DNA from: an uncultured Lachnospiraceae bacterium
Lineage (GTDB): Bacteria; Bacillota; Clostridia; Lachnospirales; Lachnospiraceae
Reading direction: 5' to 3'
Assembly: GCA_902787715.1 (NCBI GenBank)
Contig: CADAHQ010000003.1
Span: 1 to 64,000 of the forward strand
Length of the DNA: 64,000 nucleotides
Positions 52,792 to 63,404 of the stretch are shown here, one piece after another. Position numbers and translations under genes: made by a program. Positions within the stretch are counted from its first letter, which is position 1; each line of letters begins with the position of its first letter. The notes under the pieces are model-generated. The model saw only the letters and a program-made list of their open reading frames with translations, was not told the origin of the DNA and ran no database searches.

Positions 52792-53322
52792 ATGAAAAAG
52801 TTATTGAGAATCGCCCTTGCAGTTGCTTTGGTAGCTGTGATGGCAATCGGAACAGCTTTTGCTGCCGACACCGTTCTTCTCGAGGGAACCAACGGTGAGG
52901 TTACGGATGCGATTAACAACGCTCCGGAAGGCGCAAAGATCGTTTGTACTGTAAAGTACGATCCCGAGAATGCTAACAATGGTGAGACCACCGGCAATGG
53001 CTGGGGTATCGGCGGTATTGTTACCGACGGTAGCTGGACTGTTGGTACTGATTTCCAGGCAACGTACTCCAGCGACGGCGATTTTTCGCTTGAGCCCGGT
53101 GAGGTTAAGACCTACACCTTCGATGCTGATGCTGTTAAGAAGGCTGCTACCGGCGCAATCCAGATCAACTTCTACAATGGCTGGATTCTTCAGAAGGCAG
53201 TTCTCCGCACGAGCGACGGCGGTGCAGCTAAGACGGCTGATACCACGACCGTAGTTCTGTTCGGTGCTGCTGCGGTTGTTGCTCTTGTTGCAGTTGTTGC
53301 ATCCAAGAAGGCACGCGCATAA
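52792..53322 (+). CDS. Small exported protein, probably cell-surface anchored
   Basis: A 176-residue protein. Residues 1-24 are a clear signal peptide (MKKLLR, hydrophobic core, cleavage near AFA-AD). The middle (about 25-140) is a Gly/Thr/Asn-rich beta-type domain with GNGWGIGGI and NFYNGW blocks that recall small carbohydrate-binding or Ig-like folds; this is weak. The C-terminus has KTADTT (about 145-150), a hydrophobic helix and a basic end SKKARA, the layout of a sortase sorting signal, but without the usual Leu-Pro before the Lys-Thr. AAGGAGG precedes ATG 52792. Codon choice (GCT, GGT, GTT) differs from its neighbours and may reflect high expression. It is a single-gene unit. Confidence 0.85.
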   Translation: MKKLLRIALAVALVAVMAIGTAFAADTVLLEGTNGEVTDAINNAPEGAKIVCTVKYDPENANNGETTGNGWGIGGIVTDGSWTVGTDFQATYSSDGDFSLEPGEVKTYTFDADAVKKAATGAIQINFYNGWILQKAVLRTSDGGAAKTADTTTVVLFGAAAVVALVAVVASKKARA

Positions 53323-53339: not shown

Positions 53340-53369
53340 AGTCCCCGACATGTTCGGGGACTTTTTTTG
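53340..53369 (+). terminator. Strong rho-independent terminator
   Basis: A perfect 9-bp stem (53340-53348 with 53354-53362), 5-nt loop and seven Ts. It isolates the exported-protein gene from the operon that follows. Confidence 0.95.
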
Positions 53370-53520: not shown

Positions 53521-54021
53521 ATGTTCGCATGGTTTCTTGTCATTTGGATAATCCTGAACGGTCGCCTGACCTGGGAGGTTTTTGCAATCGGCGTTGTGCT
53601 TTGCGTCCCCTTAGGGCTTTTTTGTGTGTTCTTTTTGGGATATTCGTTGCGCAGGGAATTGCGTATCATCAAGCATATTCCGTGGTGCATCCACTATATC
53701 GTCGTGCTTCTGTCGGAGATTGTGAAGGCGAATTTTGCGGTTATGCGGCTGATTCTTTCCAATCGTCTTGAGCCGGAGCCGGTGCTTTTTACCTTCCGCA
53801 CGAAATTAAAGAGCGAGGCGGCCAAGGTGTTGCTCGCAAACTCCATCACCCTGACCCCGGGAACCATCACGGTGAAGCAGACCGGGGACCGCTTTGTCGT
53901 GCATGCCCTTGACCGGGAGATCGCCGAGGGCACGGAGAACAGCGTGTTCACCGAGATGATCCTTGCGGCCGAGAACGACACGGACGCCGATGCGGCGGAC
54001 GGAAAGGAGGCCCGGGCATGA
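53521..54021 (+). CDS. MrpE/MbhA-type antiporter subunit
   Basis: A 166-residue membrane protein of the MnhE/MrpE family: two or three N-terminal helices (about 1-40 and 58-80) and a cytoplasmic domain with the family block SITLTPGTITV near 108-118. It is an accessory subunit of multisubunit Na+/H+ antiporters and of Mbh-type complexes. The last 20 residues are Asp/Ala-rich and extend past the usual end. GGAGG precedes ATG 53521. Its stop overlaps the next start (ATGA). Confidence 0.93.
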   Translation: MFAWFLVIWIILNGRLTWEVFAIGVVLCVPLGLFCVFFLGYSLRRELRIIKHIPWCIHYIVVLLSEIVKANFAVMRLILSNRLEPEPVLFTFRTKLKSEAAKVLLANSITLTPGTITVKQTGDRFVVHALDREIAEGTENSVFTEMILAAENDTDADAADGKEARA

Positions 54022-54395
54022 CGATTTCCACTGCGTATGATATCCTTTTCGGCGGCGCGGTTGTCGCCATCATTCTGATCATGTTCGGCTGCCTGATCCG
54101 CGCGATCCGCGGACCGGAGATTGCGGACCGCATCGTGTCCGTCAATATGCTTGGCACGCTGACCATCATGATCATCTGTATTCTCTCTCTGTGGCTTAAG
54201 CAAAGTTATCTTTTGGATGTTGCGCTGATCTATGCGATGATCAGCTTTCTTGCCGTGGTCGTTCTGGTGCGCGTGTACTTGGGCGTCCACCGTGAGCACC
54301 TTCGCATGCGCGGCCTCTCCGACAAGCCGGAGGGAATCCTGCGCGACGAGCCGGAGGCCTCTGAGGAGTCCCCGGAGGACGGAGGTGCGAAATGA
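54018..54395 (+). CDS. MrpF/MbhB-type antiporter subunit
   Basis: A 125-residue protein with three transmembrane helices (about 7-28, 36-58, 64-86) and the family features RGPEIADRIVSVNML (about 32-46) and DVALIYAM. MrpF supports assembly of the antiporter complex. The C-terminal 35 residues form a Glu/Asp/Pro-rich cytoplasmic tail that typical MrpF proteins, about 90-95 residues long, do not have. Its stop overlaps the mrpG-like start by 4 nt. Confidence 0.93.
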   Translation: MTISTAYDILFGGAVVAIILIMFGCLIRAIRGPEIADRIVSVNMLGTLTIMIICILSLWLKQSYLLDVALIYAMISFLAVVVLVRVYLGVHREHLRMRGLSDKPEGILRDEPEASEESPEDGGAK

Positions 54396-54736
54396 TGGAG
54401 TGGATTCGTTTCATTGTCGGCGGACTCTGTATCCTTGCGGGAATCGCCACCGCGGCCATCGCGGTCTACGGACTGTTCAAATTCCATTTTGCCATGAACC
54501 GCATGCATGCGGCAGCGACGACGGACACCCTGGGAATTCTTTTAGTCCTCCTCGGGCTGATTGTGATTCGCGGCGCCGCTTGGGATGCTTTGAAACTTGC
54601 GTTGATTATTTTGTTCTTCTGGTTCGCGAGCCCCGTTTCCAGCCATCTGATTGCGGGACTTGAGGTGGAGATCAGCGACCGGCTGCCCGAAAACTGCGAA
54701 ATCGAAGAGGAAGAGCGCGGAGGTGATGCGTCATGA
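54392..54736 (+). CDS. MrpG/MbhC-type antiporter subunit
   Basis: A 114-residue protein with three hydrophobic helices. It has the MrpG block YGLFKFHFAMNRMHAAATTD (about 26-45) followed by LGILLVLLGL, and FASPVSSHLIA near 78-88, which match the family closely. The C-terminal tail is Glu-rich (EIEEEERGG). It overlaps the preceding and following genes by 4 nt each, so stoichiometric translation is likely. Confidence 0.93.
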   Translation: MMEWIRFIVGGLCILAGIATAAIAVYGLFKFHFAMNRMHAAATTDTLGILLVLLGLIVIRGAAWDALKLALIILFFWFASPVSSHLIAGLEVEISDRLPENCEIEEEERGGDAS

Positions 54737-55098
54737 CAAAAGCCATCATCCTTCTTCTGGTATGCTTCTTAATCATCTGCGCCATCGCGGTGAGCTTTAC
54801 GAAAAACCTTCTCGGGTCGGTCATCATCTTCATGTCCTACAGCCTTGTCATGTCCATCGTCTGGATCTTCCTGGAGTCCCCGGACCTTGCCATCACGGAG
54901 GCCGCCGTGGGCGCCGGAATCACCAGCGTTTTGTTCTTCGTCACCCTTCGAAAGATTGACGCTGTCGAGGAGGAGCCGGAGGACGCAGCCGCGGAGACTT
55001 CCGAAGACGCGGAAGCCGCCGTAACCTCGGAAAATCCATCCGAAGCTGCAACAAAATCGCAGAAACCTTCGGAAGACGTGTCGGGAGGTGAAGTATGA
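54733..55098 (+). CDS. MbhD-like subunit (equals part of the MrpA C-terminus)
   Basis: A 121-residue protein with three helices and the conserved SPDLAITEAAVGAGITSVLF block (about 50-69), the mark of the MbhD/DUF4040 family. In canonical Mrp this segment is the C-terminal part of MrpA; in archaeal Mbh and Mbx it is a separate subunit, as here. The last 45 residues are a hydrophilic Glu/Ala/Ser/Pro-rich tail. Overlaps of 4 nt tie it to both neighbours. Confidence 0.9.
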   Translation: MTKAIILLLVCFLIICAIAVSFTKNLLGSVIIFMSYSLVMSIVWIFLESPDLAITEAAVGAGITSVLFFVTLRKIDAVEEEPEDAAAETSEDAEAAVTSENPSEAATKSQKPSEDVSGGEV

Positions 55099-56114
55099 GC
55101 CGGATACGCAAAGATTATGAGAAAACCAAAACCGCCAAATTCCTCTCCTTCGTGCGCGGCGATAAGCCGGTGGTGGAAGAGGACCGCACGGAAGAGTGGA
55201 GACGCCGCGTGGAGGAAGTCGCGGAGGCGGATGCCGCGGAAAATGCCAGCTACTTGGAGCTCCCCGACACCGACCTGCAGGCGGACCGCCGGCTGACGCG
55301 GATGGGCGGCATGCGGGTGATGCGCCGCATCTACTACGCGCTCGCCCTTTTAATGTGTTTTTTGATTGTGGGGTTGTTGATTTTGAATATCGCTTATATG
55401 CCGCCTTTCGGAAGCGCGGATACCCCGGCCAACAATGAGGTGTCCGAGCGGTATCTGGAGAAGGGCGGGGAGGAGACCGGCGTTGTGAACACGGTCACCG
55501 GTATGATACTGCAGTACCGCGCCTTCGATACTTTCGGCGAGACCAACGTGCTCTTTATCGGTGCATGCTCGGTTATCATCCTTCTGTTGCACCGGGAGGG
55601 CGAGAAGGACAAGAGAAGACTGCAGTCGGAGAGCGTTTCCGACGGCGGGGACGAGTCCGAGTGGACGCGCGTAACCTACAACCCGGAGTATGACCGGAAG
55701 GGAGACGCGATTCTGCAGACCATCGCGAAGCTGGTGGTGCCGATTATTTTCCTGTTCGGACTGTATATCCTCTTAAACGGGCATTTGTCGCCGGGCGGCG
55801 GATTCTCGGGCGGCGCGGTCTTGGGCGCCGGACTGATTTTGTACAACCAGGCCTTCGGTTTCCGCAGAACCGAGCGGTTCTTCGACGAAAAGATTTATGA
55901 CATCATCAAAGTCGGGTCGCTGTGCCTGTATGCGATGGTGATTGCCTACTATTTGTTTACGGGAGCGAACGGGATTCCGTCCATCGTTCCGTTAGGGCGC
56001 CTCGGGGACATCTTAAGCTCCGGTCTGATTTTGCCGATCAACCTTTTGGTGGGGTTGGAGGTGGCCTGCACGATGTATGCATTTTACGCATTGTTCCGAA
56101 AGGGAAGCTTTTAA
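55095..56114 (+). CDS. MbhE-MrpB (MbhF) fusion subunit with charged N-terminal extension
   Basis: A 339-residue protein. Residues 1 to about 72 are a charged cytoplasmic extension rich in Arg, Lys and Glu. Residues about 75-175 look like MbhE: a helix at about 82-102, an extracellular part with NTVTGMILQYRAFDTFGE and a second helix. Residues about 205-339 are a full MrpB domain with NGHLSPGGGFSGGAVLGAG (about 235-253), which is diagnostic. It thus joins two subunits that are separate in Mbh and split between MrpA and MrpB in Mrp. It is linked to the MbhD-like gene by a 4-nt overlap. Confidence 0.9.
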   Translation: MSRIRKDYEKTKTAKFLSFVRGDKPVVEEDRTEEWRRRVEEVAEADAAENASYLELPDTDLQADRRLTRMGGMRVMRRIYYALALLMCFLIVGLLILNIAYMPPFGSADTPANNEVSERYLEKGGEETGVVNTVTGMILQYRAFDTFGETNVLFIGACSVIILLLHREGEKDKRRLQSESVSDGGDESEWTRVTYNPEYDRKGDAILQTIAKLVVPIIFLFGLYILLNGHLSPGGGFSGGAVLGAGLILYNQAFGFRRTERFFDEKIYDIIKVGSLCLYAMVIAYYLFTGANGIPSIVPLGRLGDILSSGLILPINLLVGLEVACTMYAFYALFRKGSF

Positions 56115-56150
56115 CGTTCGGCCGATGCAGCCGGTATTTCGGAGGTTGGT

Positions 56151-56528
56151 ATGCTTGAATTACTGACACAAAACTATCTCTCGGTTGTCTCCATGGTGCT
56201 GTTCGGCATCGGATTCGGCAATCTTTTGCTGCAGAAGAATCTGATCAAGAAAATCATCGGGCTAAACATCATGGACACCGCGGTCTATCTGTTCCTGGCG
56301 TCCATGGGCTTTATCGCGGGGCGGCTTGCGCCCATCACCGTGGACGGGGACACCGATGCGTCGCGCTATATCAACCCGATTCCCAGCGGCCTGGTGCTTA
56401 CGGGCATTGTGGTTTCCGTGAGTGTGACGGCCCTTATGCTGGCTCTCACGGTGCGGCTTTACCGGAGATACCGGACGCTGGATATCGACGTGATCACGGT
56501 AATGGTACAGAGAGAGCATCTCGAGTAA
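56151..56528 (+). CDS. MrpC/MbhG-type subunit (NuoK-like)
   Basis: A 125-residue protein with three transmembrane helices and the MrpC/NuoK-like block GLNIMDTAVYLFLASMG (about 37-53), followed by PIPSGLVLTGIVVSVSVTA (about 76-94), which is nearly invariant in MrpC. It corresponds to NuoK of complex I and is needed for ion translocation. The extra turn GDTDASRY between helices is variable. CGGAGG precedes ATG 56151; the gap after the previous gene is 36 nt. Confidence 0.93.
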   Translation: MLELLTQNYLSVVSMVLFGIGFGNLLLQKNLIKKIIGLNIMDTAVYLFLASMGFIAGRLAPITVDGDTDASRYINPIPSGLVLTGIVVSVSVTALMLALTVRLYRRYRTLDIDVITVMVQREHLE

Positions 56529-56558
56529 CGATACAAAGTTTTTGGGAGTAGAAGCAGT

Positions 56559-58055
56559 ATGGAATGGGTACGCAATTTCCCGTTCATCGCCATTATGTTG
56601 GCGATGGTTTCGGGACCGGTTTCCTCGGTTCTTCCGGGGCGGTATGCACGCCGTGTGAGTTTCCTCGTCGTCATTACGTCGGGGCTTCTTTCCGTGTGCG
56701 TTCTTGCGTACGTGCTGCAGACCGGGGAGGCATTTACATACAAGATGGGTGCATTTCCCGCACCCTTCGGAAACGAAATTCGCGCGGGTGTTCTGGAAGC
56801 GATGATGGCCACGTTCTTCTGCTTCATCATGCTGCTGTCTTTGGTGGGCGGCTACCGCTTTACCGCGGTGGACATCGCCGAGGACCGCGAGAACATGTTC
56901 TACATCCTCATTAACCTTCTTCTCGCGTCCCTGATGGCGCTGATTTACACCAACGACCTCTTTACGGGTTACGTTTTCATCGAAATCAATACGATTGCCG
57001 CGTGCGGACTTATCATGATCCGCGGGTGGGGCCGGAACCTTCTCGCCGCCACCAAATACATGATCATGTCCCTTCTCGGCTCCGGTCTTTTGCTGATTTC
57101 CATCGCGATTCTCTACGGAATCACGGGACACCTTCTCATGGTGCCGATGCATGAGGCCATCGTCAAAATAGCGGAGCAGGGAACCTTCACGGAGCCTTTA
57201 ACGGTAGCCGTCGGACTGTTCTGCGTCGGTATCGCCATCAAGTCGGCGCTGTTCCCGTTCCACGCGTGGCTGCCCGACGCCTACGGCTATTCCACCTGCT
57301 CGGCCAGCGCGATTCTCTCGAGCCTCGTCTCGAAGGGATACATTTTCCTTTTGATCAAGTTTTTCTACCGCGTCATCGGCGCGGAGCTCATCCACACGAT
57401 TCAGGTCGACGACGTTTTGTTCGTCTTCGGAATCGCCGGCATGATCTTCGGCTCGGTGAGCGCCATCCGCCAGACCGATGTGGGAAGAATGATTGCCTTC
57501 TCCTCGGTGGCGCAGATAGGCTACATCTACATGGGATTCGGCCTGAATACCGAGGCCGGAATGATCGCTTCGATTTTCCACATCTTAGCGCATTCCGCCG
57601 GCAAATCCCTCCTCTTTGTCTCCTTAAACGGCCTCTCGGGCGGCAACTGGGAGAATATGAACTATCGAAAACTCCGCGGCGCGGCGTACCGGAACAAGAT
57701 TGCCGGCGTGGGCTTTGCGGTGGGATCGCTTTCCATGGTGGGTATTCCGCTTTTGGCGGGCTTCACCTCGAAGGTGTATTTTGCGCAGGCGGCCTTCGGC
57801 GTGAGCTCGGACGTAAAGATGCTCGTCACCCTGGTCGCCCTTGCGGTCAGTACGATTTTAAATGCCATGTATTTCATCGGGCAGACGATCAATATTTACA
57901 CGCCGCTCACCCGGGCGGAGAGCCGTCCTTCCGTGAAGGTCGGTTACGCAATGTGGACGGCCATCGTCCTGTTCATCGCGGTGAACCTGCTGCTCGGCAT
58001 CGGATCGGAGCCGATTTTTGAGTGGATTGAGCAGGGACTTGCCCTGTTCGGGTAA
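56559..58055 (+). CDS. Antiporter-like subunit 1 (MrpD/MbhH, NuoN/M-like)
   Basis: A 498-residue membrane protein with about 14 helices. The ion-path residues of this family are present: Glu142 in FIEINT (helix 5), Lys228 in AIKSALFPFHAWLPDAYG (helix 7), Lys259 in VSKGYIF (helix 8) and Lys405 in GFTSKVYF (helix 12). FPFHAWLPDA is the signature of proton-translocating NADH-quinone/Mrp subunits. By position, directly after the MrpC gene, it corresponds to MrpD/MbhH. A second antiporter-like gene follows after 37 nt. Confidence 0.93.
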   Translation: MEWVRNFPFIAIMLAMVSGPVSSVLPGRYARRVSFLVVITSGLLSVCVLAYVLQTGEAFTYKMGAFPAPFGNEIRAGVLEAMMATFFCFIMLLSLVGGYRFTAVDIAEDRENMFYILINLLLASLMALIYTNDLFTGYVFIEINTIAACGLIMIRGWGRNLLAATKYMIMSLLGSGLLLISIAILYGITGHLLMVPMHEAIVKIAEQGTFTEPLTVAVGLFCVGIAIKSALFPFHAWLPDAYGYSTCSASAILSSLVSKGYIFLLIKFFYRVIGAELIHTIQVDDVLFVFGIAGMIFGSVSAIRQTDVGRMIAFSSVAQIGYIYMGFGLNTEAGMIASIFHILAHSAGKSLLFVSLNGLSGGNWENMNYRKLRGAAYRNKIAGVGFAVGSLSMVGIPLLAGFTSKVYFAQAAFGVSSDVKMLVTLVALAVSTILNAMYFIGQTINIYTPLTRAESRPSVKVGYAMWTAIVLFIAVNLLLGIGSEPIFEWIEQGLALFG

Positions 58056-58092
58056 AAAGAGCAGTCGGAAAATCCTATCGGAGGAAGCTACT

Positions 58093-59604
58093 ATGGAATT
58101 GTTATTGCCCCTCACCATTGTGATCCCGGTCGCGGGTGCGATTATCATCGCCCGGAGCAAGACGCTACGGACGTCCCTTCGCGCGCTTCACATCGCGATG
58201 TTTTCCTTCGTCGCGGCGACAGCGGCCTGTGTGGTTCTGCTTGCCACGCAGGAGGGGACGGAGATTGCGCTGTTTGAATTTCTGCCGGAGGTTCCGCTCT
58301 ATTTCCGCGTCGACCTCGTCTCCATCCTGTTCTCGCTTCTTACGGTGGCAATGTGGCTTGGTTCCACATTGTTTTCCTTCGATTACCTCTCCCACGGAGA
58401 GCGGGAGGACCGCTACGACATCTTTTCGCTCCTGGCTCTCGGCGCCCTCATGGGCGTGTGCTTCTCGGGCAATCTGGTGACCACGTATATTTTCTATGAG
58501 ATGATGACCCTTGCGACGTTCCCTCTTGTCATGCACGAGCAGACGAAGGAAGCGGTTTCCGCAGGTATGACCTATTTGTATTATTCCCTGGCGGGGGCGT
58601 TCCTCGGCCTCGTCGGAATCTTTTTCCTGTACACCTACGCAGCGCCTGCGACACGCACCGGCGGTGTGGTTTCCTACGTTGCCGGCGGCTTTTTGAACTA
58701 CGGAACCGACAGCACCGGCCTTCAGGTCGCGGTATTTTTGATGCTTGTGGGCTTAGGCTCCAAGGTCGGTATGTTCCCGTTGCACGGATGGCTTCCAAAA
58801 GCGCATCCCGTGGCGCCGGCACCGGCTTCGGCCCTTCTGTCCGGCAACATCACGAAGATGGGCATTCTGTTTATCATCCGCGTTGTGTATTACAGCGTGG
58901 GACCGCAGTATCTGTGGGGAACCTGGATGCAGACGGCGCTTTTGACCCTGGTCCTGATCACGATTTTCCTAGGGTCCATGCTTGCTTTCCGCGAGAAGGT
59001 AATGAAGAAACGACTGGCGTACTCCACCGTGAGCCAGACTTCCTATATTCTTGCGGGAATCTATCTGTGCTGCAATGTCGGAACCGCCGCAACCGGCGCA
59101 ATTTTGCATATCGTGTTCCACTCGGTGATTAAAAACCTTTTGTTCCTCTGCGCCGGTGCCGTGATTTACAAGACCGGAAAGACGAGAGTGGAGGAGTGGA
59201 AGGGCTTAGGCCGGCAAATGCCCGTCACCATGACCGCATTTACCATCGGCGGTCTGGCCCTTGTGGGAATTCCTCCCCTTGCGGGATTTGTCAGCAAATG
59301 GCAGCTGGCTACCGGTGCCCTTGACACGGGACTTCCGTATTTCGAGTATCTGGTGCCCGCGATGCTTCTTGTGAGCGCGCTGCTGACCGCCGGATATCTG
59401 ATGGGACCTGCAGCGGACGCGTGGTTTGTCGCAAAGAGCGAGGAGAGCGGAGAGGAAAAGTGCGAGGTGTCGTGGCGCATGCTTGTCCCGCTTTGCGTTC
59501 TCGCTGCAGCGGCGATTCTCTTCGGATTGTTCCCGAAGGAGTTGACGAATTTTGCGAATTATCTTGTTGACACGGTGATGACATTCTCATTCCCCGTGAA
59601 ATAG
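58093..59604 (+). CDS. Antiporter-like subunit 2 (NuoL/M/N-like)
   Basis: A 503-residue membrane protein with about 14 helices and a complete set of key residues: Glu136 in FYEMMTL, Lys224 in GSKVGMFPLHGWLPKAHP, Lys255 in NITKMGILF and Lys402 in GFVSKWQ. The WLPKAHP form of the signature is closer to MrpA/NuoL-type subunits than the WLPDA of subunit 1. ATG 58093 was chosen from GGAGG upstream; a frame from 58018 lies in the previous gene. It has no extended C-terminus, so it could stand for the N-terminal two thirds of MrpA. Confidence 0.92.
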   Translation: MELLLPLTIVIPVAGAIIIARSKTLRTSLRALHIAMFSFVAATAACVVLLATQEGTEIALFEFLPEVPLYFRVDLVSILFSLLTVAMWLGSTLFSFDYLSHGEREDRYDIFSLLALGALMGVCFSGNLVTTYIFYEMMTLATFPLVMHEQTKEAVSAGMTYLYYSLAGAFLGLVGIFFLYTYAAPATRTGGVVSYVAGGFLNYGTDSTGLQVAVFLMLVGLGSKVGMFPLHGWLPKAHPVAPAPASALLSGNITKMGILFIIRVVYYSVGPQYLWGTWMQTALLTLVLITIFLGSMLAFREKVMKKRLAYSTVSQTSYILAGIYLCCNVGTAATGAILHIVFHSVIKNLLFLCAGAVIYKTGKTRVEEWKGLGRQMPVTMTAFTIGGLALVGIPPLAGFVSKWQLATGALDTGLPYFEYLVPAMLLVSALLTAGYLMGPAADAWFVAKSEESGEEKCEVSWRMLVPLCVLAAAAILFGLFPKELTNFANYLVDTVMTFSFPVK

Positions 59605-59643
59605 CAAGCAGTTTTTTTTCTTGTCGAAAGGAGCCTGCAACTC

Positions 59644-61161
59644 ATGAGCGTTTATGTTCTCCTGATTCCGATTCTTCTGCCGATTCTCGGCGGGGCGACT
59701 CTCGGAATCTGCAGAGTGCAAAACCGAAAGCTTCGGGAGGTCATCACCATGGCGATGGTCCTTCTTACTTCCGCATGCGTTGCGGTGGCGCTTGTGACGC
59801 GCCCGGAAGGCTCTGCGACGGTACTGACGCTGGCGGGAAGTCTCGCGGTCAAATTCCGCCTGGACGGCATGTCCTGCGTATTTGCCGCACTTGTGTCGGT
59901 GCTGTGGCCTCTGGCCACATTGTATGCCTTTGAGTATATGGAGCACGAGGGCAATACCAACACCTTCTTTACGTGGTATACCATGACCTACGGGGTGACC
60001 CTCGGAATCGCATTTGCCGGCAATTTGATGACCATGTACATGTTCTATGAGATGCTCACTCTGGTGACCATCCCTCTGATGATGCACGGCAGAAGCTACA
60101 AGGCGATGTTGGCCACCAGAAAATACGTCCGGTATTCCATCGGCGGGGCGGCATTTGCCTTCATCGGATTCATCGCCATTGCGGTGTACGGCGAGACTCT
60201 CGATTTCCGCATGGGCGGTGTTTTGACCGAGGGCAGCGGAAGCCGCACCATGCTTTTGATTGTCTACGGCATGACCGTTCTCGGATTCGGCGTCAAATCC
60301 GCCATCTTCCCGTTCCACGGCTGGCTTCCCACGGCATCGGTGGCACCGACGCCCGTGACGGCTCTTTTGCATGCGGTGGCGGTGGTAAAGGCCGGCGCCT
60401 TTGCGATTATGCGTGTTACGTACTATAGCTTCGGGAAGAATTTTCTGCGGGGAACCTGGGTGCAGTACACGGTGATGATGTTCGCCGTTGTGACCATGGT
60501 GTACGGCGCGGTGAAGGCCGTGAAGGAGCAGGACTGCAAGCGAAGGCTCGCCTACTCCACCGTAAGCAATCTGTCCTACATCATCTTCGCGGCGTCCCTG
60601 ATGCGGAGCTCCGGAATGCAGGCGGCAATGCTGCACATGCTGTTCCACGGATTGATGAAGATTACGCTGTTCTACTGCATCGGCGCTGTGATGGTGAAGG
60701 CCGGAAAGCGCTATGTGTGGGAGATGGACGGCATGGGAAGAAAGATGCCGCTGATTTTTGCGGTGTACACGGTGGCAGGCATCTCCTTGATCGGCATTCC
60801 GCCGCTGGCGGGATTTGCCAGCAAATGGTACATCGGCACCGCTGCGGTTTTGGCGGACACCGGCTTCGGGTATGTCGGACTCGGTGCGCTCATTCTTTCG
60901 GCGTTGCTCTCGGCGGCCTACATCCTTGAGGTTGTGGTGAGAGCATGGCTTCCGCGAAAGGACACCGCAGGGGGAGAGCATTCGGAGGATTCGTCCGCCT
61001 CGGAGACGGAGCCTGCGGCGGGAACCCCGGAGGAGCCGGCGAAGGTAGGGCTGCGCATGGCAATTCCCTTGGTTATTCTGATGATTTTGATTATCCTGTG
61101 CGGCGTCGCATCGACGCCTGTCGCGGAGTTTTTGGCGGATGTCGCGTATGACGTCTTCTGA
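59644..61161 (+). CDS. Antiporter-like subunit 3 (NuoM/L-like)
   Basis: A 505-residue membrane protein with about 14 helices, similar in plan to subunit 2. Key residues are Glu136 in FYEMLTL, Lys218 in GVKSAIFPFHGWLPTASVAP, Lys249 in AVVKAGAF and Lys394 in GFASKWY. The HAVAVVKAGAF form at helix 8 is typical of the NuoL/MrpA branch. A hydrophilic loop rich in Glu, Ser and Thr (about 440-472) sits before the last helix. AAAGGAG precedes ATG 59644. It follows subunit 2 by 39 nt and is probably a duplicated paralogue. Confidence 0.92.
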   Translation: MSVYVLLIPILLPILGGATLGICRVQNRKLREVITMAMVLLTSACVAVALVTRPEGSATVLTLAGSLAVKFRLDGMSCVFAALVSVLWPLATLYAFEYMEHEGNTNTFFTWYTMTYGVTLGIAFAGNLMTMYMFYEMLTLVTIPLMMHGRSYKAMLATRKYVRYSIGGAAFAFIGFIAIAVYGETLDFRMGGVLTEGSGSRTMLLIVYGMTVLGFGVKSAIFPFHGWLPTASVAPTPVTALLHAVAVVKAGAFAIMRVTYYSFGKNFLRGTWVQYTVMMFAVVTMVYGAVKAVKEQDCKRRLAYSTVSNLSYIIFAASLMRSSGMQAAMLHMLFHGLMKITLFYCIGAVMVKAGKRYVWEMDGMGRKMPLIFAVYTVAGISLIGIPPLAGFASKWYIGTAAVLADTGFGYVGLGALILSALLSAAYILEVVVRAWLPRKDTAGGEHSEDSSASETEPAAGTPEEPAKVGLRMAIPLVILMILIILCGVASTPVAEFLADVAYDVF

Positions 61162-61194
61162 GTCTTGAATTTTCTTCGGGAAAGGAGCATCGGT

Positions 61195-63360
61195 ATGGAG
61201 GGCAGAGGAATTCTTTTATTGTTCCTGTTGCTTCCCCTTGCGGGAGGCTTGCTTTCCTGCGCCCTGAAACCGGCGGAGCGGAAGTTCGGAGAGCGGGGCA
61301 AGATGATCTCCGCGGGCGTTCTCTTCGCTGTTCTTGCGGCCGTGTTCGGGCTTTCGTTGTGGGCCGTTGCTGCGGTTACGAAGGGTGCGGAGGACCTCAC
61401 GCTGTATGTTCCGAATGTGTGCGGGTACGGTCTGAATCTTACGGTGGACGGCTTCCGGGCGGTGTATCTGACGGTGGCGTCCTTTGCGTGGCTTGTGTCG
61501 GGCGTATTTTACGCGTGGTACGGAAGCCACGATGCGTCGGCGCTCCGGTATCAGGTGTTTACGATGGTGACGCTGTCGTGCACCCTGGGCGTCCTTTTGT
61601 CCGCTGATCTGTTCACGCTGTTTATCTTCTTTGAGGGCATGTCCCTCGCGTCCTATGTGTGGGTAGCCCATGAGCGCACGGCCGAGGCCATCCGCGCATC
61701 AAAAACCTACCTTACGGTGGCGGTCATCGGCGGCATGGTGCTTTTGATGGGCATCTTCCTTCTGTACCGCGAGGCCGGGACCCTTTTCATCAACAATCTC
61801 ACGCTCCGGTATTACTTTGCGGAGAATCCGCGGGCTGCCTGGGCTGCGGGGCTTTGCCTGTTGTTCGGCTTCGGCGCGAAAGCAGGCGGTTGGCCGCTTC
61901 ACATCTGGCTTCCCAAGGCGCATCCCGAGGCACCGGCCTCCGCGTCGGCGCTTCTGTCGGGCATCCTCACAAAAACCGGCGTGTTCGGTATCTTCGCCGT
62001 GTGCGGAAGATATTTCCTCTACAACGCAGACTGGGGCCGCCTTGTGTTCTGGATCGGTATTGTCACCATGCTCGTGGGTGCAATCCGTGCTCTCGGCTCC
62101 ATCGACATCAAGCACATGCTTGCCTGCTCATCGGTTTCCCAGATCGGCTTCATCCTGGTGGGAATCGGCGCCGCCGGCATCATGGAGTCGGATAATGCCA
62201 TGGCTGTCACGGGCAGCATCCTTCATATGCTCAACCACTCGGCGTTTAAGCTGATTCTGTTCCTGTGTGCGGGCATCGTCGTTCACCGGCTTCACACCCG
62301 GGATTTCAACAAGATCCGCGGCTTCGGGCGGAACCATTACGGTTTGATGATTCTAATGCTGATTGCGTCCTTAGGCATCGCCGGCATTCCGATTTTCTCC
62401 GGCTATGTCTCAAAGACGCTGATTCACGAGTCCATTGTGGAGATTTACCACGCCAGCGGAAGCGGAATATACAAGTTTGCAGAGCACCTGTTCCTGTTGG
62501 CCGGCGGTTGCACCTTTGCGTATATGGTGAAGCTTTTCGTGGTTCTGTTTGTCCGGGAGCCTTCTCCGGAAGTTCAGGCGGCGGAGCTTGGGCGGGGTCC
62601 GAAGGACATGCCCCGGGCGAGCATGGTGCTTCTCTTTGCAACGGCATTTTTGATTTTCATCTTCGGCGCCATGCCGGAGGTTTCCATGATTCCCATCGGG
62701 CGGCTTGCCTCGGATGTTTTGCCGTACGGAACCCTGCATCATGTGCCGGAGTTCTTCGGCCCGGAATGCCTTAAAGGGTTCGTTTATACGGTGGCGTACG
62801 GACTCCTCATTTTAGGGGTGGAAACCGTCCTTGTGAGACGGAAGCGCGTGTCTTTGCGGACCACGCCGGAGTATGTGGACCGCATGGAGAAGCTGCCGAC
62901 TCTTGAGGACAATCTCTACCGACCGCTTTTGTTCCGCGTCTTCCCGGCGGTTTTCGGAACGCTGATGCGGGGACTTGAGAAGTTTACGGAATACACGGCG
63001 ATCGGCGTGTTCGGGTTCTGCAAGGCGGTCCTTGCCGTTTGCGACAAGGTGGTCGACGCTTTGATTCTTCTGCTGCGAAGAACAGTGCTTGCGCCGGTGG
63101 TGGAGCAGCGGAGCATCACCCTTGCGGAGGCGATTTGCAACCCCATCGGCCATATCGGAAACGGTTTCCGAAAGTTATGGAACCTGACCTTCGGCCGCAA
63201 ATCCCCGAAGGAGGGCGACTGCGTGGAAGCAATCAACCGCGCCCGCGTGGGCATTGCGGACAGTGTAAAACTGGTGTCGCGAAGCCTTTCCTACGGTCTG
63301 ATGACCTTCTGCATCGGTCTGTTGATTTTGATGGTGTATCTGCTGTGGAGTTTCTTTTGA
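61195..63360 (+). CDS. Antiporter-like subunit 4 with long C-terminal extension
   Basis: A 721-residue membrane protein. The core (about 1-510) has the usual 14 helices and key residues Glu147 in FFEGMSL, Lys229 in GAKAGGWPLHIWLPKAHPE, Lys260 in LTKTGVFG and Lys407 in GYVSKTLI. After it come about 200 more residues: a helix near 545, long amphipathic helical stretches (about 580-690) and a final hydrophobic helix at the very end. This recalls the lateral helix of NuoL, but I cannot align it. AAAGGAG fixes ATG 61195; the frame from 61165 begins with an unsupported TTG. It is the last gene of the operon, before a strong terminator. Confidence 0.92.
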   Translation: MEGRGILLLFLLLPLAGGLLSCALKPAERKFGERGKMISAGVLFAVLAAVFGLSLWAVAAVTKGAEDLTLYVPNVCGYGLNLTVDGFRAVYLTVASFAWLVSGVFYAWYGSHDASALRYQVFTMVTLSCTLGVLLSADLFTLFIFFEGMSLASYVWVAHERTAEAIRASKTYLTVAVIGGMVLLMGIFLLYREAGTLFINNLTLRYYFAENPRAAWAAGLCLLFGFGAKAGGWPLHIWLPKAHPEAPASASALLSGILTKTGVFGIFAVCGRYFLYNADWGRLVFWIGIVTMLVGAIRALGSIDIKHMLACSSVSQIGFILVGIGAAGIMESDNAMAVTGSILHMLNHSAFKLILFLCAGIVVHRLHTRDFNKIRGFGRNHYGLMILMLIASLGIAGIPIFSGYVSKTLIHESIVEIYHASGSGIYKFAEHLFLLAGGCTFAYMVKLFVVLFVREPSPEVQAAELGRGPKDMPRASMVLLFATAFLIFIFGAMPEVSMIPIGRLASDVLPYGTLHHVPEFFGPECLKGFVYTVAYGLLILGVETVLVRRKRVSLRTTPEYVDRMEKLPTLEDNLYRPLLFRVFPAVFGTLMRGLEKFTEYTAIGVFGFCKAVLAVCDKVVDALILLLRRTVLAPVVEQRSITLAEAICNPIGHIGNGFRKLWNLTFGRKSPKEGDCVEAINRARVGIADSVKLVSRSLSYGLMTFCIGLLILMVYLLWSFF

Positions 63361-63372
63361 TTTTGCAACATG

Positions 63373-63404
63373 AGGGAAATCCGGAAAGGATTTCCCTTAT
63401 TTTC
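63373..63404 (+). terminator. Rho-independent terminator of the Mrp/Mbh-like operon
   Basis: A perfect 10-bp stem (63373-63382 with 63388-63397), GGAAA loop and a TATTTT run. It shows that the operon ends with subunit 4. Confidence 0.87.

Follow-up and report, generated by a model that had tools for sequence, protein, structure and literature searches.

The closest studied stand-alone relative of the system described here is the group 3 Mrp of Pyrococcus furiosus, encoded by mrpEFGBB'CD, for which Na+/H+ exchange in pH homeostasis has been proposed; its published description gives an Mbh-like gene order with neither mrpA nor a redox module, a single antiporter-like subunit and a fusion of MbhD with MbhE (PMC8415708). 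The membrane-bound hydrogenase (MBH) and sulfane reductase (MBS) complexes of P. furiosus are reported to be built on the same small subunits (PMC8415708), with one and two antiporter-like subunits, respectively. Canonical Mrp complexes (Bacillus, Anoxybacillus; CPA3 groups 1 and 2) have two antiporter-like subunits and a one-piece MrpA, and group 3 clusters with an extra D gene have been listed for Microbacterium (mrpFGBCDDAE) and Aphanothece (mrpCD1D2EFGAB) (PMC5703873). Four pumping subunits are described for the 2M complex I of Nitrospira, in which NuoM is the doubled subunit, and for the rhizobial green complex I, and five for Manganitrophaceae (PMC9040806). Here, we analyze a ten-gene cluster at positions 53521-63360 of a 64,000-nucleotide window (the whole stretch of DNA examined, positions 1 to 64,000 of contig CADAHQ010000003.1, assembly GCA_902787715.1) from an uncultured Lachnospiraceae bacterium. 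The cluster encodes four full-length antiporter-like subunits, labeled A7 to A10, and we consider it likely to specify a stand-alone, Mbh-ordered group 3 Mrp-type Na+/H+ antiporter in which the middle one of three antiporter-like (proton-channel) subunits was duplicated in tandem, bringing their number to four.

Architecture of the ten-gene cluster

The ten adjacent open reading frames (ORFs) all lie on the + strand, and all ten products score above the curated Pfam cut-offs. The cluster begins with an MrpE/MbhA-like subunit (53521..54021; MNHE, PF01899, E 3e-30), an MrpF/MbhB-like subunit (54018..54395; MrpF_PhaF, PF04066, E 6.3e-14, together with conservation and alignment), an MrpG/MbhC-like subunit (54392..54736; PhaG_MnhG, PF03334, E 2.4e-19, with a conserved SPVSSH motif containing Pro81) and an MbhD-like subunit equivalent to the initial portion of the MrpA C-terminal domain (54733..55098; PF13244, E 5.2e-21, with a conserved TEAAVGAG motif containing Glu56). 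An MbhE-MrpB(MbhF) fusion (55095..56114; MbhE, PF20501, E 1e-7; MnhB, PF04039, E 4.1e-24) and an MrpC/MbhG/NuoK-like subunit (56151..56528; Oxidored_q2, PF00420, E 1.3e-21) precede the large subunits. These are A7, the proximal subunit, which the tree places on the MbhH/MbxH/NuoN side (56559..58055); A8 and A9, the middle subunits, assigned from the trees as putative duplication copies 1 and 2 (58093..59604 and 59644..61161); and A10, the distal subunit, assigned from hydropathy (61195..63360). All four match Proton_antipo_M (PF00361; E 1.8e-52, 5e-55, 3.2e-56 and 1.5e-60, in that order) and are the only Proton_antipo_M proteins of the genome, a 2.48 Mb assembly that is 97.5% complete. The hydropathy profile of A10 reveals a NuoL/MrpA-like C-terminal extension consisting of transmembrane helix 15 (TM15), a long linker and a last transmembrane helix. 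In NCBIfam, monovalent cation/H+ antiporter subunits account for most of the best matches, with a DUF4040 protein for MbhD and hydrogenase 4 subunit B for A10, and none of the matches listed (the best 25 for the large subunits) reaches its curated cut-off.

The first five genes overlap by 4 bases at all four junctions, and the later genes are separated by gaps of 30-39 bases if A10 starts at 61195. We regard this start as the most likely one, the longest ORF opening ten codons earlier at a TTG (61165), and place the start of A8 at 58093, one codon after that of the reference ORF (58090). With these two starts, the Glu/Lys/Lys/Lys residue numbers given in the original prediction, which had been made from the sequence alone, are right for A7 (E142/K228/K259/K405), A8 (E136/K224/K255/K402), A9 (E136/K218/K249/K394) and A10 (E147/K229/K260/K407). 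The ORFs and Pfam profiles likewise bore out the ten genes that it had named, an order resembling Mbh rather than mrpABCDEFG, and the lack of redox genes within the cluster.

The locus displays several features of group 3 Mrp (CPA3): homologues of MrpB, C, D, E, F and G stand in one cluster in irregular order, no redox module of the three families searched in its own genome is present, and the large subunits carry the Glu/Lys/Lys/Lys residues. A one-piece MrpA joining NuoL-like and MbhD/E domains is not found, its parts being encoded separately in MbhD, in the MbhE-B fusion and in A10; since mrpA is also absent from the P. furiosus group 3 Mrp as described, a single-polypeptide MrpA is not a defining trait of the group. 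The two systems share the Mbh-like order, the absence of mrpA and of a redox module and, as we infer for this locus, Na+ as coupling ion (PMC8415708), but four antiporter-like subunits are present here instead of one, and MbhE is fused to MrpB rather than to MbhD. The Mbh-like order without a redox module, which the original prediction had singled out, is therefore present but not new. Canonical Mrp shares homologues of E, F, G, B, C and D and a NuoL-like distal subunit with a lateral helix (PMC7419157), whereas its MrpA is one fused protein. The claim that canonical Mrp contains two large subunits is correct as far as it goes but omits published three-subunit clusters such as mrpFGBCDDAE (PMC5703873). 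MBH and MBS share the Mrp module, and MbhH (6cfw_H) is the best match in the Protein Data Bank of all four large-subunit profiles, tied with MrpA in the case of A9; the present cluster differs from both complexes in its four large subunits and in lacking a hydrogenase or sulfane reductase module. The 2M and rhizobial green complexes I have the same number of ion-pumping subunits, but these enzymes are redox-driven, whereas no NuoB or NuoD is found here. In the titles and abstract openings of the open-licence PMC papers among the matches listed by our searches, we found neither a stand-alone Mrp with four antiporter-like subunits nor a described complex with exactly this subunit set.

Conservation of the cluster and origin of the fourth subunit

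Of the 22 genus genomes, 20 yield an A10 match (none in G006 and G017; fragmented or partial in G011 and G020), and the ten-gene order is identical in all 13 same-genus clusters examined, out of these 20 matching genomes, and in two clusters from other families, one A9 among the 15 being broken into three pieces (L037). A wider search of genome contigs yielded at least 579 related stretches. The best 80 loci, most of them labeled Lachnospiraceae and six of which are contigs also counted among the genus genomes, comprise 67 with the exact order, ten cut by a contig end, two with a split or extra ORF and one (L117) without a recognizable A9. Across the order, A10 is detected at E <= 1e-70 in 38 of 196 sampled genomes that are at least 90% complete. 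The ten-gene cluster is real, widespread and conserved, and what is surprising about it is less its gene order than the doubling of a middle subunit in a system that has no redox arm.

Clusters with Mbh-like order and three large subunits occur in Peptoclostridium acidaminophilum, Rubrobacter radiotolerans and the haloarchaeal Halomicrococcus (plasmid records) and in other Clostridia. They share the arrangement E-F-G-MbhD/E-B(-C) followed by antiporter-like subunits, and those of P. acidaminophilum and the other Clostridia contain orthologues of A7, of a middle subunit and of A10, with one middle subunit where A8 and A9 stand here. The Rubrobacter record starts the large subunits with the long one and carries no MrpC annotation, and in Halomicrococcus a G-like ORF is seen by profile only. 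In P. acidaminophilum, a two-component system, a malic enzyme-like gene and a 2-hydroxycarboxylate transporter follow on the 3' side of the three-subunit cluster (L131:10961-15920).

We computed a 94-row tree with a quick search and Shimodaira-Hasegawa-like approximate likelihood ratio test (SH-aLRT) supports, and a 37-row tree with a careful search and bootstrap/SH-aLRT supports; the rows include long ones and ones of unusual composition, and the deep branches are weakly supported. In the larger tree, A7 groups with the first large subunit of the three-subunit clusters, beside MbhH/MbxH/NuoN, A10 groups with their last large subunit, and A8 and A9 are sisters (99) placed among their single middle subunits. 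The trees do not place all four within MrpA/MrpD clades of characterized systems; this placement and a described complex with the same subunit set were the two outcomes that the original prediction had named as speaking against it, and neither was found. The smaller tree recovers the A8-A9 pair (100/99) and joins it to the middle subunits of clostridial three-subunit clusters (98/98), with the nearest sister of the pair not fixed. The trees give good support to the interpretation that A8 and A9 arose when a three-subunit cluster duplicated its middle subunit.

Of 292 genomes sampled across the class, 23 match the A10-orthologue alignment (A5) at E <= 1e-90. Loci retrieved from 19 of these comprise five with four large subunits (in L138 the small subunits lie beyond the contig end, and in L150 the fourth subunit is broken), 13 with three and one that is cut. 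Three of the 13 (L148, L149 and L151) carry A7 and two A10-like long subunits but no middle subunit. The family labeled f44 contains both three- and four-subunit clusters, and its fourth subunit (L152:10560-12005; L150:5658-7252, split into two ORFs) falls outside the A8/A9 pair. A single origin of all fourth subunits was rejected as a candidate: trees that join the additional f44 subunit to A8 or to A9 are disfavored in the approximately unbiased (AU) test (p 0.020 and 0.037), which provides moderate evidence given that we defined the groups once the first tree had been seen. Since the f44 extra subunit lies outside the A8/A9 pair, a fourth subunit was probably gained twice, independently in f44. 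Other relatives with Mbh-like order have one (L040, L043, L044) or two (L042) large subunits, and at L041 two large subunits stand without any of the small subunits. L040:723-12838 (G039) consists of three tandem Mbh-like-ordered clusters with one large subunit each, MrpE not being recognized in the middle one.

Ion-path residues and proposed mechanism

The Glu/Lys/Lys/Lys residues are retained in 71/71 full-length orthologues of A7, 71/71 of A8 and 77/77 of A10 from the 80 loci. In the 77 orthologues of A9, the Glu and the first Lys are invariant, Lys394 is replaced by Arg once, and Lys249 is Lys in 67 and Asn in ten. Conservation of the small subunits was assessed over 41 rows per subunit, and the cation-path positions given for Mrp and MBH (PMC7419157) were matched by spacing and counting, the alignment including neither an MBH nor an MrpG reference. 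Asp145 and Glu149 of MbhE (in FDTFGE, opposite FDTLFE in P. megaterium MrpA), MbhD Glu56, MrpG Pro81 and MrpC Asn39 and Asp42 are conserved and, partly by counting, fit the positions listed in that paper, although the overall match is imperfect. The two MrpC residues occupy the positions of a Ser and a His in P. megaterium and those taken as N34 and D37 of MbhG. In MrpF, Asp37-Arg38 is kept, and Asn43 occupies the position of the Asp that we take to be D35 in P. megaterium MrpF.

In the stand-alone antiporter that we favor, the small subunits E-F-G-MbhD-MbhE/B-C would form the cation path, followed by a row in which A7 adjoins MrpC, A8 and A9 constitute a doubled middle and A10 occupies the distal end, its long C-terminal linker bracing the large subunits. 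The MrpC/MbhD/A7 junction would couple the passage of protons along the row to that of cations, and the cellular role would be to interconvert H+ and Na+ gradients. Gene content, its conservation, the residue sets and the absence of the redox families searched are observed directly; assembly as one complex, its stoichiometry, its cation specificity, its direction and an H+/Na+ ratio above that of Mrp are our inferences.

Several observations weigh against this picture. The D35 of MrpF, reported to be essential in Anoxybacillus Mrp (PMC7419157), is replaced by Asn43, as it is by Asn in most of the related anaerobe clusters aligned; His41 of MbhG corresponds, by counting, to Tyr46; and MbhD Glu56 aligns opposite a Gln of MrpA, the MrpA Glu facing Gly60. 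The Asn at position 249 in ten of 77 A9 orthologues suggests that the proton path of this duplicated subunit may be in change. L117:672-2777 encodes A10, and the 671 bases preceding it contain no recognizable A9. The linker between TM15 and TM16 spans 80 residues in E. coli NuoL, 44 in P. megaterium MrpA and 125-158 in A10 orthologues (57 rows, median 131), but its length does not divide three-subunit (43-162, median 95.5, 18 rows) from four-subunit clusters (96-206, median 130, 21 rows) across families. Linker growth with subunit number was accordingly dropped as a general rule, f44 alone separating cleanly (139 in three-subunit versus 188 and 206 in four-subunit clusters), and the overlapping ranges leave bracing of the whole row unproven. 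For complex I, including 2M, the mark of an added subunit would be a lateral helix about 26 residues longer. Finally, the ten genes may specify two small complexes with common subunits instead of one.

Ion currency, redox partners and alternative explanations

Genome G000 encodes two F-ATPase c subunits (C1:376535-376723 and C16:37926-38114; L125, L126). One carries Gln, Glu and Thr at the Na+-ligand positions (GIGQG...AETTG), as these are given in PMC2359735, and the other is devoid of the Gln and Ser/Thr ligands (GIGIG...AEATA), so that this one genome is predicted to encode a pair of F-type ATPases that differ in coupling ion. Two c subunits are present in 19 of the 20 genus genomes with A10, the exception being G015 (80% complete); both sequences were read for nine of the 19, and for the other ten the H+-type was read and the second assigned by score class only. 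The two genus genomes without A10 have one c subunit each; that of G017 is Na+-type, that of G006 apparently H+-type. The association of the c-subunit pair with A10 (Fisher p 0.013, uncorrected for kinship) rests on these two negative genomes and fits a machine linking H+ and Na+ circuits. In this genus, which is devoid of Rnf, the antiporter would mediate exchange between the H+-type and the Na+-type F-ATPase.

The direction of exchange could be the opposite, with the complex serving as an acid-stress proton extruder that takes Na+ in and expels H+, as proposed from deletion strains for P. furiosus Mrp (PMC8415708). Many hosts of the cluster are gut and rumen bacteria, judging from record titles, which suits such a function; expelling several H+ per Na+ would nevertheless require a Na+ gradient far above the proton motive force, an argument from reasoning only, and we find this use plausible but unlikely. 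It is less probable still that the genes specify at least two separate assemblies, the small subunits and A7 forming an Mbh-type Mrp and some of A8-A10 acting as independent transporters. Lone MrpA-like proteins of Natranaerobius and Methanosarcina acetivorans are reported to exchange Na+/H+ (PMC5703873), but all ten genes and their order are conserved across many loci, and A10 retains its NuoL/MrpA-type extension.

The original prediction had left a choice between a stand-alone antiporter and a membrane arm docking a redox partner encoded elsewhere. MBH and MBS redox complexes require hydrogenase-type large and small subunits, and respiratory complex I, including 2M, requires NuoB and NuoD; neither PF00346 (NuoD/hydrogenase-large) nor PF01058 (NuoB/hydrogenase-small) has a match in the genome, whereas both match in 11 of 14 control genomes. 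PF02508 (Rnf/Nqr) has no match in this genome (four of 14 controls match) nor in any of the 22 genus genomes, which leaves the genus with no known primary redox pump of the kinds searched. Across the order, PF02508 occurs in 167 of 196 genomes, as counted from match lists, and Rnf is found in 36 of 38 A10-positive (all but G000 and G220) versus 131 of 158 A10-negative genomes. Most hosts therefore already possess a redox-driven pump, and use of the complex as an Rnf substitute across the order was rejected. Of the 38 genomes with A10, only one has a PF00346 match (G166 C62:18242-18958; L127, L128), and A10 lies on a different contig there. A complex I-type partner elsewhere was accordingly rejected, the searches covering PF00346, PF01058 and Rnf/Nqr but not NuoH-like or unknown redox modules, and the stand-alone option is supported. 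A redox-driven pump whose electron-transfer module lies elsewhere or is of unknown type, although favored by the small subunits shared with MBH and MBS, the closeness of the large subunits to MbhH and the lack of Rnf in the genus, is very improbable given the missing PF00346 and PF01058 matches, the Rnf of most hosts and the absence of any widely shared neighbor gene.

Among 100 loci, no neighboring gene family (ORFs of at least 100 residues) occurs in more than 19, redox profiles not having been run on the neighbors. Two families with 19 and two with 18 loci, folD included, are restricted to the genus of the window (19 loci, two of them duplicates), and one further family with 19 loci is scattered. 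On the 3' side of the operon, a terminator-like inverted repeat read by eye, GGGAAATCC-GGAAA-GGATTTCCC, and its T-rich tail (63374..63403, + strand) precede folD, and a terminator-like hairpin with a T run, also read by eye, lies between a small upstream ORF and mrpE (53340..53368, + strand). A sequence scan called neither hairpin, and promoter-like sites are not above chance (seven found versus 5.1 +/- 2.0 expected). Directly 5' of mrpE, positions 52792-53322 encode a small exported-looking protein with a hydrophobic C-terminal end; a family that probably includes it occupies that place in seven loci.

Beyond the individual locus, we tentatively propose, with some doubt, that a non-redox antiporter independently repeated the step taken by 2M complex I in doubling a middle proton-channel subunit. 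A fourth channel would have arisen at least twice within Clostridia, the product would be a geared four-channel Na+/H+ exchanger, and the stand-alone Mbh-type Mrp complexes of bacteria, whose channels number one, two, three or four, would form a natural series in which the H+/Na+ ratio rises with each channel. For complex I and Mrp, debate continues over the coupling of the antiporter-like subunits and over the number of protons that each of them moves. In a redox-free family whose members have one to four channels, channel number is separated from electron transfer, so that H+/Na+ ratios could be compared with channel number, and the family would offer a natural test of the effect of each added channel if the complex works alone, as it appears to do. 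For gut and rumen Lachnospiraceae, the cluster suggests a route by which H+ and Na+ gradients may be exchanged.

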